Shown here piece after piece: positions 50,799-56,036 of a DNA stretch of 64,000 nt. The translations under genes and the position numbers were made by a program. The notes under the pieces are model-generated. The model was not told where the DNA came from, did not search any database, and worked only from the letters and a program-made list of their open reading frames with translations. Positions within the stretch are counted from its first letter, which is position 1; the number at the start of each line of letters is the position of its first letter. The stretch comes from Owenweeksia sp. (GTDB taxonomy: Bacteria > Bacteroidota > Bacteroidia > Flavobacteriales > Schleiferiaceae): contig JANQPD010000045.1 in NCBI GenBank assembly GCA_028285465.1, positions 1 to 64,000 of the forward strand, written 5' to 3'.

Positions 50799-51689
50799 TT
50801 AACGGCTCACGCTGCCCATGGGAAAAGTAGTAGCTGTTTGATTGTTCAAGCCGAAGGTTACATGGTCATCTGCGCTGGCAGAAACGGGGTGTACTAAGGG
50901 CTTAAAAGCAAATGGGGCCGGGCTATTATCGGGCACGGGTTCAATAGAAATTACAATGGTAGCCCCGCGCAGATCCGTAGGAAAGCTAAGCCCGGTAGGC
51001 GCGTTGAGCACAAAATCTTCACCGGGAAAAGGAGGGCCTGCGGCATCACTTCCGCTAAATCCGTTAAAGCGATCCGCCATGGAACCCGCGTCAAAAGTCC
51101 CGGTAGAAACGGGCACGCCGTCAATAACCGCCCAGCCTTCATAGGTCCAGTTGTCGGGCAAAGCGGGCAAGTTTAAGCCGGCTGCAGGCATGCCTCCCGT
51201 TAGGTCCAGGAACCATACGCCACTGCGTTCATCCGTCATGTCGCTGGTAGTAGGTGTAGCCAGAATGTAAGATCCACTGGCGGTGTTCAGGTCAGCATCC
51301 AAAGCTGCGGGGTGATGGGTATTTACCGTGGCTGTACTTCCATTAAAGGCGCCTCCCACAAGCTTTATGGCACTGGGTGCAGGGTCGCTGTCAGGATGTG
51401 GCTCCAGACTTAACACAAACATGCTGGCCGCATCTAAGGTAGCCTGGGGTACGGAAAAAGAGGATTGAGACCATTCCCCGTTTTCATTTACTTCAAACAG
51501 TCCGGTACTTACGGGTGCTCCATCTACAATAACCCAGCCTTCATAGCGCTCGTGCTCACCCGTAGCAGCTAAATTGCTGATGTTCAGCACCAGGTTTCCA
51601 TTGGTACTGCCTGGTTCTTCGGCTTCTTCTTTACTGCACGACACCAGGGCCATACTTGCCGCTAACATTATAAAACTTAACTTCTTCAT
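50799..51689 (-). CDS. lipoprotein with duplicated RskA-like (anti-sigma-K C-terminal) domain
   Basis: A protein of 296 residues with a lipobox (MALVSC, Cys at about 18) and a short acidic linker. Two copies of a beta-sandwich follow. Copy 1 (about 45-135) reads YEGWVIVDGAPVSTGLFEV ... LSLEPHPDSDPAPSAI. Copy 2 (about 180-285) reads YEGWAVIDGVPVSTGTFDA ... ISIEPVPDNSPAPFAF. The pattern resembles the periplasmic domain of RskA-type anti-sigma factors, but no sigma-binding part or membrane helix is present, so it is not an anti-sigma factor itself. Its promoter carries the same direct repeat at the same position as the adjacent response-regulator promoter, so that regulator probably controls it. 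Confidence 0.72.
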   Translation of the reverse strand: MKKLSFIMLAASMALVSCSKEEAEEPGSTNGNLVLNISNLAATGEHERYEGWVIVDGAPVSTGLFEVNENGEWSQSSFSVPQATLDAASMFVLSLEPHPDSDPAPSAIKLVGGAFNGSTATVNTHHPAALDADLNTASGSYILATPTTSDMTDERSGVWFLDLTGGMPAAGLNLPALPDNWTYEGWAVIDGVPVSTGTFDAGSMADRFNGFSGSDAAGPPFPGEDFVLNAPTGLSFPTDLRGATIVISIEPVPDNSPAPFAFKPLVHPVSASADDHVTFGLNNQTATTFPMGSVSR

Positions 51690-51713: not shown

Positions 51714-51721
51714 CAAAAGTC
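51714..51721 (-). promoter_or_regulatory. -7-like element of the lipoprotein gene
   Basis: On the minus strand this reads GACTTTTG, one mismatch from TAnnTTTG. It is 24 nt before the lipoprotein ATG and 9 nt from the adjacent TATCAC repeat. Confidence 0.5.
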
Positions 51722-51730
51722 AGGGAGAAG

Positions 51731-51747
51731 TATCACGCAAATATCAC
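51731..51747 (-). promoter_or_regulatory. putative response-regulator binding site (direct repeat) upstream of the lipoprotein
   Basis: Two TATCAC half-sites at 51731-51736 and 51742-51747 have an 11-nt period; the minus strand reads GTGATA-N5-GTGATA. OmpR-type regulators bind such tandem direct repeats one helical turn apart. The same arrangement occurs before the regulator gene, at 53961-53977. Confidence 0.65.
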
Positions 51748-51779
51748 AGGAAGGTATACAATTGATCTCGCTGGTCTGA

Positions 51780-53231
51780 TCAGGCTGCCTGCAGGGTAAA
51801 ACAGAAAGTAGTGAGGCCCTGGGGTGTGCTTTCCGCCCATATTTTGCTTTCGTGTATGTCCATGATGTTTTTCACGATAGCCAGGCCCAAGCCCGTGCTG
51901 TCTGTGCTCCTGTCTGCGTCTTTATAGTAGCGGTCAAATACCTTATTCAGCTTTTCGCTGGCTATGGGTTTCCCGGTATTGCTTATTGCAACAAGCCATT
52001 TCTCTTCTTGTTGTTTTAAAAGGAGTTTCACTTTTCCGCCCGAGCTGAATTTTAAAGCGTTGTCAAGCAAATTTTGAAGCGCACGCTGAACCAGCGCTAT
52101 GTCGGCTTTTACCAAAGCATTTTCCGGCAGGTCGGTTTGTAGCTGTATGCCCTTTTCTTTGGCCAGGCCCTGGTATTGCTGGGCCGTATCTTTTAAAAGC
52201 TCTTTGAGGTTAAAGGCCTCTTTAAGTACTTCAACCTGTCTTGCCTCTAATTTGGAAAGTTCAAAAAGGTCGCTTACCTGCTTGCTCAGCCGGTCACTGT
52301 TTTTCAATACAATTTCCAGGTATTGCTTTCGCTGGTCTTTGCTCAGCCGGTCGTTTTTGATCAATAAAGTTTCTACATACCCGTGTATTACGGCCAGCGG
52401 ACTGCGCAGGTCGTGCGATACGTTGGCAATGAGGTCTCTACGCAGGCTATCCACTTCTTTTAGATCCTCCATGTTTTGCAAAATGGTATCTGCCATGTGG
52501 TTAAAGGTCCTGGCCAGGGCATTGAGCTCGCCCTTACCCTTATCGGGGATGCGCAGGTGGTAATCTCCTTCTTCAAACTGCTTAACACCGGATATGATCT
52601 TTCTGAGTTTTTTGGTGAGCAGTGCGATGAGCAGCAGTCCTAACGCGAAGGCCGCCACTAAGGTGATCCAAAAAGCACGGGTACCTATTTTTAAAAAATA
52701 GCTGCCTTGCAGGGCCTCAGCAATATTTTGGGATTTTTCACTGGCCAATACCATGTATACATACCCCATAAAGCGCCCCTGTTCGTGTACTTCGGTGGCA
52801 GAAAAAATGGTCTTTGCACCTGGGGTACGCGGGTCATCGCCCAATACAAAACTTTGGCCCTTTTCGGCTATAAAGCGTTTTACGGGGGCAATGTCTACAT
52901 TCTTAAGCCGTACTTCTTCATCCAGTACTACGTACTTTAAAATGGTGCCTTCCGCATCGAGCAGGTATACCTCCAAAGCCGGGTTCACCGCCATCATGGA
53001 ATGCATGATCTTCCCCAAAGCCTCCTCGTTTACTTCTCCGTTTTGAAACGGGTTTACCTCAAGAAGCATATGCCGGGCAACGTGTGCGTGAAGCTTCTGG
53101 GTAGTTTCCTGGTAGTATTTTCGTGCGGAGGTTACGGTAATAGACACATAGGCAACCCCAAGCACGAGCAGCATGAGCAACAAGCCGCCAGAAAGGCGCC
53201 AGAAAAGTGAACTTTTAAAAGGGCTTGTCAT
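51780..53231 (-). CDS. sensor histidine kinase
   Basis: A protein of 483 residues: a first membrane helix (about 12-32), a periplasmic sensor of about 150 residues and a second helix (about 190-210). HAMP follows (about 212-265), then HisKA with the phosphoacceptor in NVSHDLRSPLAVIHGY and HATPase with NLLDNALKFSS and GLGLAIVKN. It is the partner of the response regulator at 53228-53926 (4-nt overlap). The signal is unknown. It lies immediately upstream of the RskA-like lipoprotein, itself a likely target. Confidence 0.93.
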   Translation of the reverse strand: MTSPFKSSLFWRLSGGLLLMLLVLGVAYVSITVTSARKYYQETTQKLHAHVARHMLLEVNPFQNGEVNEEALGKIMHSMMAVNPALEVYLLDAEGTILKYVVLDEEVRLKNVDIAPVKRFIAEKGQSFVLGDDPRTPGAKTIFSATEVHEQGRFMGYVYMVLASEKSQNIAEALQGSYFLKIGTRAFWITLVAAFALGLLLIALLTKKLRKIISGVKQFEEGDYHLRIPDKGKGELNALARTFNHMADTILQNMEDLKEVDSLRRDLIANVSHDLRSPLAVIHGYVETLLIKNDRLSKDQRKQYLEIVLKNSDRLSKQVSDLFELSKLEARQVEVLKEAFNLKELLKDTAQQYQGLAKEKGIQLQTDLPENALVKADIALVQRALQNLLDNALKFSSGGKVKLLLKQQEEKWLVAISNTGKPIASEKLNKVFDRYYKDADRSTDSTGLGLAIVKNIMDIHESKIWAESTPQGLTTFCFTLQAA

Positions 53232-53926
53232 GATAAGGCATCATTAAAGCGGTAGCCTACTCCCCAAATGGTGAGAATAAACCGGGGGTTGGAAAGATCG
53301 GTTTCCAGCTTTCCGCGCAGGCGGTTTATATGTGAGTTAACGGTGTGCTCATACCCGTTAAATTCGTACCCCCACACAGAAGAAAGCAATTGCTCACGGC
53401 TAAAAGGCTTGCCGGCATTTTGCGCCAGCAGGCAAAGAAGGTCGTATTCTTTTGGCGTTAGATCTAGTGTTTCACCCTCTTTTTTTACGAGGTGCTTCTC
53501 AAAGTCTATGAATAGCCCTCCCAGGCTAAGGTGTCGTGTGCCTGCCTGTGTTGTCTTTTTGAATTCGCTTCTCCTTAGAATGGCCTTTACCCGTGCGGTC
53601 AATTCACGCACGCCAAAAGGTTTTGTGAGGTAATCATCTGCACCGGATTCCAACCCCATTACCTTGTCAAACTCTTCTGCTTTTGCCGTAAGCATCAGGA
53701 TGGGCGTATACACATTCAGGGCTCTCAGTTTCTGGCATATTTCCAACCCGCTCATCCCCGGCAACATCAGGTCGAGAATGATCAGGTCAAAAGACCCGGA
53801 CCTGGCCTGCTCAAACCCCTCTGCGCCATGCCCCACACTAACGGGCTCGGTCTGAAGGTCGTGGAGGTGAAGCTCCACAAGACTGCGGATGTCCGGATCG
53901 TCCTCGATCAATAAAATACGCTTCAT
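53228..53926 (-). CDS. OmpR-family response regulator
   Basis: A protein of 232 residues. The receiver domain (about 1-118) has the acidic pair in LIEDDP, the acceptor Asp in LIILDLMLPGMSG, and the conserved Lys in YLTKPFG. The C-terminal winged helix (about 130-230) shows LTPKEYDLLCLLAQNAG and VNSHINRLRGKLE. It should activate transcription by binding direct repeats. Such repeats are found upstream of this gene and of the RskA-like lipoprotein gene. Translationally coupled to the kinase. Confidence 0.95.
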   Translation of the reverse strand: MKRILLIEDDPDIRSLVELHLHDLQTEPVSVGHGAEGFEQARSGSFDLIILDLMLPGMSGLEICQKLRALNVYTPILMLTAKAEEFDKVMGLESGADDYLTKPFGVRELTARVKAILRRSEFKKTTQAGTRHLSLGGLFIDFEKHLVKKEGETLDLTPKEYDLLCLLAQNAGKPFSREQLLSSVWGYEFNGYEHTVNSHINRLRGKLETDLSNPRFILTIWGVGYRFNDALS

Positions 53927-53943
53927 AACCTAAGTTTACCACC

Positions 53944-53951
53944 CAAAGGTA
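53944..53951 (-). promoter_or_regulatory. -7 promoter element of the response-regulator gene
   Basis: The minus strand reads TACCTTTG, a full match to TAnnTTTG, 17 nt before the ATG at 53926. No -33 TTG is present; the direct repeat takes that place, as at activator-dependent promoters. Confidence 0.6.
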
Positions 53952-53960
53952 TAAGGCTTG

Positions 53961-53977
53961 TATCACGAAAGTATCAC
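53961..53977 (-). promoter_or_regulatory. putative autoregulatory response-regulator binding site
   Basis: TATCAC occurs at 53961-53966 and 53972-53977 with an 11-nt period. It starts exactly 9 nt beyond the -7 element, the same spacing as at 51731-51747. Confidence 0.65.
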
Positions 53978-54027
53978 GGAGCCGACATTGCCGAAAAGCG
54001 CCTATTTTAGCCCAAAATCCAAAAAAG

Positions 54028-54441
54028 ATGAGTAAGGCTCCCAAGCCCGTAGGCTTATATCCCCTGGCCCGTAAAGTGGGCAACTTGTTGTTTTTAAGCG
54101 GCGTTGGTCCGCGCATAGCCGGCAGTGATGCGCATGATTCCGGGGTGCCCGGCCTGGAACTGGACCATAACGGCAACTTCAAAGCATTTGACTTTGAAGC
54201 ACAGGTACACAGTGTTTTTGCCAATGTAAAAGCCATTTTGGAGGCGCATAACAGCGGTTGGGATAAGCAGGTAGACATCCAGGTTTTCCTGGTAGATATG
54301 AAGCGCGACTTCCACGCTTTTAACCGGATTTATGCCGAGTACTTCAAGGAAATGGAGCCAAAACCTTGCAGAACTACCATTGCCATTACCGCTTTACCTA
54401 CCCCTATAGCGATTGAATTGAAGTGTGTGGCTGAGGTATAA
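54028..54441 (+). CDS. RidA/YjgF family deaminase-like protein
   Basis: A protein of 137 residues, the family's usual size, forming trimers. The active arginine lies in EPKPCRTTIAITALP, and the C-terminal glutamate in IAIELKCVAE. N-terminal GLYPLARKVGNLLFLSG and the extended GLELDHNGNFKAFD segment resemble 2-aminomuconate deaminases of the kynurenine route more than housekeeping RidA. No other kynurenine genes are near. It may hydrolyse reactive enamine/imine intermediates. The gene is divergent from the response-regulator gene. Confidence 0.85.
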   Translation: MSKAPKPVGLYPLARKVGNLLFLSGVGPRIAGSDAHDSGVPGLELDHNGNFKAFDFEAQVHSVFANVKAILEAHNSGWDKQVDIQVFLVDMKRDFHAFNRIYAEYFKEMEPKPCRTTIAITALPTPIAIELKCVAEV

Positions 54442-54501: not shown

Positions 54502-55611
54502 TCAAGACCTGAACTTCAAACGTTTCTCGTTGTAGGTTTCACTTAGCACGTTGATGAAGCCGTCCAATTCTTCTGTTACATTTTTGAAGTAGCCTGCGTA
54601 CTCACGTGCTTTTTCTTTGGTAAGCTTTTCTTTTTCCAGCATTTCCGAAAGCCCGATCAGGTTGGCCACCGGGCGCCTGATGATGTGCGAAATGGAATAG
54701 GAGATTCCTTCCAGGGTTTTTTGGTATTCCTTACTTTCGGTAATGTCCTGGAAGATGCCATACCAGACAACAGTACCGTTAGAGCGTTTTTCCGGCCTGG
54801 CTGTGGCGCTGTTCCAGCGCAACTTGCCATCGGGCAGCACAATCCGGTATTCCAGCTCCAGTTGGGTAAGCTCATTTTTTGATACCTCTATTGCGGCTTG
54901 CACGCGCTCAAGGTCATCCGGGTGTATGATCCTGAACCCGGCCCAGGAATTTTCCTTCAGTTTTTTTGGGGTTAGTTCGGGGTGCAGGTTTTCTATGCCT
55001 TTGCTGATAAAGGAGAAAACAGACGTTTCATCCGGGGCCAACTCAAACTGGAAAAGAGCCCCCGGTGTATTGTCGGTAAGGTATTTAAGCAGCTTGGCAC
55101 TTTCTTTAATTTCCTTTTTTTGTGAGAGCAATACCTTCCGGTTTTCAAGGTGCTCCATTACTCTTTTTGAGAGAATTCTAAGGCCTTCGAGCTGCTCCGG
55201 ACTGAGTTCGCGTGGTTTATCGTCTATTACACAAAGGGTGCCCAGGGCATGCCCTTCCGGTGTTAATAGGGGAGCACCTGCATAAAAACGGATGTTGGGA
55301 TCACCCAGTACGAGGGGATTGTCCTTAAAGCGCTCGTCTTCTGTGGGGTTTTCTACTACCATCACTTCATCGGGTTTGTTGATGGCGTGCGCACAAAAAG
55401 CTTGTTCCCGTGGCGTTTGTTCTGCACCCAGCCCCACTTTTGCCTTGAACCACTGGCGCTCGGAGTCTACTAAAGAAATAAGGGAAATGGGCATGCCACA
55501 AATGGCCGAAGCGAGGGTTACGATGTCGTCAAACTCACTTTCGGCAAAGGTGTCCATTATGTTGTATTCAGCTAGCGCCTCCAGTCTCTTTTCTTCCTGT
55601 TCTTTCTTCAT
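54502..55611 (-). CDS. GAF-PAS signalling protein with HisKA-like segment but no ATPase domain
   Basis: A protein of 369 residues. The GAF domain (about 20-160) shows SLVDSERQWFKAKVG, FCAHAI and LCVIDD, as in light- or small-molecule-type GAFs of bacterial kinases. PAS/PAC follows (about 180-300, FRIIHPDDLERV, GIFQDITE). The last 65 residues contain a dimerisation helix with SISHIIRRPVANLIGL, similar to HisKA, and then the protein ends. There is no HATPase catalytic domain. It may serve as a sensory dimer or as a phosphotransfer partner for the single-domain receiver encoded 26 nt upstream. Confidence 0.82.
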   Translation of the reverse strand: MKKEQEEKRLEALAEYNIMDTFAESEFDDIVTLASAICGMPISLISLVDSERQWFKAKVGLGAEQTPREQAFCAHAINKPDEVMVVENPTEDERFKDNPLVLGDPNIRFYAGAPLLTPEGHALGTLCVIDDKPRELSPEQLEGLRILSKRVMEHLENRKVLLSQKKEIKESAKLLKYLTDNTPGALFQFELAPDETSVFSFISKGIENLHPELTPKKLKENSWAGFRIIHPDDLERVQAAIEVSKNELTQLELEYRIVLPDGKLRWNSATARPEKRSNGTVVWYGIFQDITESKEYQKTLEGISYSISHIIRRPVANLIGLSEMLEKEKLTKEKAREYAGYFKNVTEELDGFINVLSETYNEKRLKFRS

Positions 55612-55637: not shown

Positions 55638-56036
55638 TTAAATAATGATGTCTTCGGCTTTAATCGGCTTGCTTAAAAAACCCTTTACCGTAGGATAGGA
55701 AAGTGCCTTTTCTCTATCAAAAGCATCAATAGAAGAAGTAACTACCAAAATATCAGGTTGTTTAGAATGTGTAAAAGGATGTATTTTTTCTAAAAAATCC
55801 CAGCCACTTACTACAGACATATTTAAGTCCAGCAAAATGAGGTCTGGTCGCTCTTCATGGGCACCTGGCTCTTCCAATTTCTTTAAAGGTTGTTGCCCGT
55901 TCTCAAACTCCTGAATGTGCGATTGCGGATAAGCTGTTTGTACAAGCTTGCGTTCCATCATCCGGTAAATGGGATCATCTTCTACTAGCCAGACAAGGTG
56001 TACCGGCCGGGAAGGATCGCTGTTTGCATTGCTCAT
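55638..56036 (-). CDS. single-domain response regulator receiver
   Basis: A protein of 132 residues that is a receiver domain alone. The acidic pocket is VEDDP, the phosphoacceptor Asp lies in LLDLNMSVVSGWDFL, Thr/Ser in VVTSS and Lys in GFLSKPIKAED. It has no output domain and probably relays phosphate. It is followed by the GAF-PAS protein gene. A -7 match on the minus strand (TAATTTTG, 56089-56096) lies 52 nt upstream. Confidence 0.9.
   Translation of the reverse strand: MSNANSDPSRPVHLVWLVEDDPIYRMMERKLVQTAYPQSHIQEFENGQQPLKKLEEPGAHEERPDLILLDLNMSVVSGWDFLEKIHPFTHSKQPDILVVTSSIDAFDREKALSYPTVKGFLSKPIKAEDIII

Follow-up and report, generated by a model that had tools for sequence, protein, structure and literature searches.

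The analysed DNA is a 64,000-nucleotide stretch of an Owenweeksia sp. genome (contig JANQPD010000045.1, hereafter the window), in which genes for a response regulator (RR), a histidine kinase (HK) and a lipoprotein (LP) follow one another on the minus strand. A repeat and a -7-type element precede both RR and LP, so that the locus comprises the following features, in the direction of transcription:

53961..53977, minus strand: operator 1 (predicted), GTGATA-CTTTC-GTGATA, before the RR-HK operon
53944..53951, minus strand: -7 element TACCTTTG of the RR promoter, 9 nt from operator 1, assigned from sequence and spacing profile
53228..53926, minus strand: OmpR/PhoB-type response regulator (RR), 232 aa, with Pfam Response_reg and Trans_reg_C
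51780..53231, minus strand: membrane sensor histidine kinase (HK), 483 aa, with Pfam HAMP, HisKA and HATPase_c
51731..51747, minus strand: operator 2 (predicted), GTGATA-TTTGC-GTGATA, before the LP gene
51714..51721, minus strand: -7-like element GACTTTTG of the LP promoter, 9 nt from operator 2, assigned from sequence and spacing profile
50799..51689, minus strand: lipoprotein (LP), 296 aa, with lipobox ...ALVSC, the acidic stretch SKEEAEE and two RskA_C stretches

The HK gene, absent from the original prediction, sits between the two repeat sites. It overlaps the RR stop by 4 nt, the two genes thus forming one operon, and the LP repeat site falls within the 90-bp gap that follows it. On the other side of the operon, the RR promoter lies in a short intergenic gap (53927-54027) shared with a divergent Rid-family gene (54028-54441, plus strand); co-regulation of that gene is doubtful, as the divergent neighbour differs in relatives.

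Repeats at the regulator and lipoprotein promoters

On the plus strand, TATCAC-N5-TATCAC occurs without mismatch at 51731-51747 and 53961-53977, and consequently reads as GTGATA-N5-GTGATA in the direction of the minus-strand genes. The 11-nt period and the coordinates given in the original prediction are exact, as is the distance of 9 nt between the downstream half-site and GACTTTTG (51714-51721) or TACCTTTG (53944-53951). Allowing at most 2 mismatches, the window contains six matches compared with a shuffle mean of 2.96, and the exact ones are the two described sites only. The same holds for the whole genome (3,836,310 bases on 99 contigs, searched by pattern), where the exact 12-letter pattern is confined to these two positions; three matches with a single mismatch fall elsewhere, one of them within an EF-G-like coding sequence. 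The genome scan that had been proposed, for GTGATA-N5-GTGATA placed 9 nt from TAnnTTTG, returned the two sites alone: no third match to the 34-nt pattern including the -7 element was found on either strand of the genome with up to 3 mismatches, and the reversed-pattern control gave 0. A wider regulon in this genome was rejected on the lack of any additional 34-nt-pattern site at 3 mismatches.

Relatives of HK are present in 9 of the 60 relatives examined, in 23 of 395 genomes from the order and in 22 of 395 from the class, in addition to 15 named loci that include Owenweeksia MAGs, the cultured Phaeocystidibacter luteus LMG 25704, Xanthovirga aplysinae, Chryseolinea and MAGs of Cyclobacteriaceae and Bacteroidales. 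RR stands in front of HK in the loci read, and the orthologous loci compared come from three Bacteroidota orders. The repeat is present with at least 10 of its 12 letters in 31 of 34 RR upstream regions, against about 0.5% for dinucleotide shuffles, while periods other than 11 (7 to 16 were tried) were seen in 0-3 of the 34. The mean score for the -7 element (TAnnTTTG, 6 letters) is 4.5 at a distance of 9 nt, with a maximum of 2.81 among the remaining distances between 0 and 24. The consensus of the 31 RR sites, GTGAtA-nTTTt-GTGATA-N9-Ta.tTTtG, carries 37 bits (no small-sample correction). The orthologs are related and the counts are hence not independent events; still, the conservation of the RR site is not mere relatedness, because the intergenic DNA around it has clearly diverged.

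Two of the 34 close orthologs (L038 and L041) have no repeat in forward orientation before RR. At L041, a more distant ortholog, the repeat pair is reversed (L041:694, minus strand, before RR at 765) and points towards a divergent gene, 9 nt from the -7-like element GTTATTTG. At L098, back-to-back repeats were observed (3717, minus; 3755, plus), one towards RR and the other towards a divergent secreted-protein gene, and at L100 a repeat (1459, minus) follows HK upstream of a gene unlike a lipoprotein, with none seen before RR. Among the more distant HK relatives of the class sample, roughly half lack GTGA-N7-GTGA before RR, and the circuit is therefore typical of a closer clade, not of the relatives as a whole. 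Several sites in the order have a -7 element that departs strongly from consensus (TTCATTCG is one example), and the true start may consequently differ there. An exact match to the 34-nt pattern was obtained in 10 of the 24 HK-positive genomes, in each case at the RR-HK-LP locus, and in 0 of 24 HK-negative ones; matches with 1 mismatch elsewhere in other genomes are about as common as those of the reversed-pattern control.

A corresponding picture was obtained for 30 lipoprotein or secreted-protein genes, which were chosen as neighbours of RR-HK. A significant combined site, reached by at most 1 of 300 shuffles, precedes 28 of them, some sites being degenerate in one half, and no significant site was found at the remaining two (L037 and L014). 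In the 25 promoters where the repeat matches at least 10 of 12 letters, the mean -7 score is likewise highest at 9 nt (4.8, with at most 2.44 elsewhere), and their consensus, GTGATa-ntttc-GTGATA-N9-tAc.TTTG, carries 33 bits (no small-sample correction). Seven linked LP genes, that of the window and six close orthologs, have a site with GAnnTTTG. No site was found at three RskA_C relatives unlinked to HK (L022, L023 and L025). The products of the neighbouring genes belong to unrelated families: RskA_C in most cases, Spondin_N (by domain scan in L070, with L095 and L102 alike by sequence only) and DUF7482-like proteins (L075 and L083, whose scores fall short of the curated cut-off, and L087 by similarity). 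The product of L033 received no family assignment in the domain scan, and those of L035 and L037, which look similar, are likewise without a family.

Regulator, kinase and lipoprotein

The designation of RR as an OmpR-type regulator in the original prediction is borne out by PF00072 (97.0 bits) and PF00486 (97.8 bits), each above its Pfam cut-off, and a cognate membrane kinase (HAMP-HisKA-HATPase_c), the mark of an OmpR/PhoB-type pair, is encoded in the same operon. Orthology to PhoB was rejected on scores of 203 against a cut-off of 296.2 (TIGR02154) and 178.1 against 270 (the Bacteroidetes PhoB model NF053854), and orthology to MtrA on a score of 230.8 against the equivalog cut-off of 300. 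RR-HK is thus well supported as a newly recognised pair within the OmpR/PhoB-type systems that is neither PhoB nor MtrA by model cut-offs; our literature search retrieved no description of this RR-HK-LP system. The recognition helix, GYEHTVNSHINRLR, is nearly unchanged among orthologs: GYEHTVNSH(I/V)NRLR is identical in 23 of the 24 examined, the other one having GYTHTVNSH, and the next OmpR-type RR of the genome (40% identity) has GRTIDVHIRKLR at this position. A near-invariant recognition helix fits a near-invariant operator.

Three characterised regulators provide points of comparison. RR shares the winged-helix fold with PhoB, and its predicted operators, like the pho box, are direct repeats at an 11-bp period. 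The pho box consists of two 7-bp direct repeats, each followed by 4 A/T-rich bp and bound by one PhoB monomer; in E. coli it is usually near -10, and PhoB contacts sigma region 4 (PMC4971064). However, the half-site here is GTGATA and not the pho half-site, the promoters are of the -7/-33 and not the -10/-35 type, and phosphate genes are absent nearby. The actinobacterial MtrA gave the best NCBIfam score (230.8), and the best solved relative of RR is 2gwr. The MtrA site is likewise a direct repeat with an 11-nt period, built of a 9-nt unit plus 2 nt (PMC6265350), but its half-site is GTnAC, and recognition helix, phylum and targets are different. CenR of Rhodobacter sphaeroides (CenKR), compared here by its site, recognises TGA-N8-TGA, which has the core letters and the period of GTGATA-N5-GTGATA, and it has a conserved site before cenR as well as envelope targets (PMC9275681). 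Conversely, the CenR motif is carried by 31 promoters as opposed to the two sites found here, and activating CenR sites lie upstream of -35, whereas the present repeat lies on the -33 region.

The periplasmic sensor of HK was modelled as a PAS/Cache-like domain (pLDDT 84) with weak PDB matches (best E 2.8e-3). It is strongly conserved, with a mean column identity of 60%, and within the segment IMHSMMAVNP (about residues 75-84) the His and Met residues show little or no variation among 20 to 24 orthologs. The segment is a possible ligand or metal site.

The description of LP as an RskA-like lipoprotein holds for the lipobox and the two RskA_C stretches (PF10099, 54.8 bits, cut-off 29.4), but not for the anti-sigma part. 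The likeness is to the C-terminal domain of RskA; the anti-sigma-K factor itself has a cytoplasmic sigma-binding N-terminal domain and a single transmembrane segment, neither of which LP possesses. Only a lipoprotein signal precedes RskA_C, no other Pfam match was obtained and the NCBIfam anti-sigma model NF052375 scores 37.9, far below its cut-off of 100. A role of LP as an anti-sigma factor was rejected on these grounds. The lipobox cysteine, C18, is nearly invariant in orthologs and is followed by a serine at +1 of the mature end and by KEEAEE, an acidic stretch that, judged by eye, also occurs in orthologs. Such a stretch resembles the surface export signal of Bacteroidetes (PMC5080379), which makes export of LP to the cell surface probable. 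The structure model of LP is beta-rich and of moderate quality (pLDDT 77), and its comparison with the PDB gave no match at E <= 0.001.

Proposed control circuit

Since distant relatives throughout the phylum Bacteroidota share this arrangement, RR-HK and the repeats almost certainly form a genuine and dedicated regulatory circuit. In the mechanism that we propose, the periplasmic sensor of HK would take up a signal, upon which HK would phosphorylate RR, and a dimer of the phosphorylated regulator would bind GTGATA-N5-GTGATA in a head-to-tail arrangement, with each half-site occupied by one subunit and both subunits on the same face of the DNA. The flavobacterial -7 box extends from -12 to -5 (PMC9723704), which places the repeat at about -38 to -22, in agreement with the earlier claim that it replaces the -33 box. 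The predicted transcription starts are close to 53939 for RR and 51709 for LP. From there, RR would recruit RNA polymerase to a promoter whose -7 element is often non-consensus; it would switch on its own RR-HK operon, resulting in positive feedback, and the neighbouring, probably surface-exported LP.

Three promoter features, namely the distance fixed to one nucleotide, the often non-consensus -7 element and the repeat's occupation of the -33 region, suggest that RR is an activator that touches RNA polymerase, much as PhoB contacts sigma region 4 (PMC4971064). The fixed spacing argues for activation without proving it. Thus, in the predicted activator of itself and of a neighbouring envelope protein, the sites, their period and spacing and the pairing of RR with LP are conserved across the phylum and the motif is genome-specific, while for activation itself we rely on promoter geometry. 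Taken as a whole, a two-component activator of its own operon and of a surface lipoprotein, acting via the repeats, is very probably the correct explanation.

LP could instead be an accessory input that feeds back on the periplasmic sensor in the manner of CpxP or anti-sigma regulators and is co-regulated for that reason. The tight linkage of HK and LP, their shared promoter design and the naming of RskA_C after an anti-sigma regulator are in line with such a role, which could also coexist with the preferred explanation. However, the sensor is strongly conserved while the family of its partner changes (RskA_C, Spondin_N, DUF7482-like), and a binding partner should not be exchangeable; moreover, the acidic residues that follow the lipobox point to a location outside the cell, away from the sensor. 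Since the partner families change and the sensor does not, LP more probably acts as an output of the circuit than as an input to it, and we regard the accessory role as unlikely.

A repressor would account for the same sites and the same conservation: an RR dimer over the -33 region would block RNA polymerase, with phosphorylation changing or relieving its binding, and repressors also bind where a site overlaps the core promoter. Repression, however, would not require the -7 distance to be constant to the nucleotide throughout a phylum. The repeat furthermore takes up the -33 region, and the -7 element is often non-consensus (GAnnTTTG, TTnnTTCG), as for activator-dependent promoters, making a repressor an improbable reading, somewhat more so than an accessory LP. 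Finally, that the repeats arose by chance or form a constitutive upstream promoter element rather than an operator is consistent with the mere two sites in one genome, but is extremely improbable given their genome-wide uniqueness, the exact spacing over the phylum, the co-conserved recognition helix and the absence of sites at unlinked lipoprotein genes; a chance origin was rejected on the uniqueness and the conservation at ortholog promoters.

Returning to the activator, to our knowledge few activator binding sites have been defined for the -33/-7 promoters of Bacteroidota, and our literature search found no activator site of this kind for them. The locus provides a precise predicted operator at a fixed position, a predicted regulon of two promoters in this genome and a handle on surface lipoprotein families. 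On balance, we lean towards a phylum-wide cassette in which sensor, RR, recognition helix and operator-promoter are near-fixed and the controlled gene is swapped among unrelated families of surface lipoproteins, the repeat with its -7 element at 9 nt serving as a portable activator-dependent promoter in Bacteroidota.

Beyond the Rid-family gene, the window encodes a GAF-PAS protein (54502-55611, minus strand) with a HisKA fragment only and without an ATPase domain, adjoined by a stand-alone receiver protein (55638-56036, minus strand); the two look like an orphan signalling pair.
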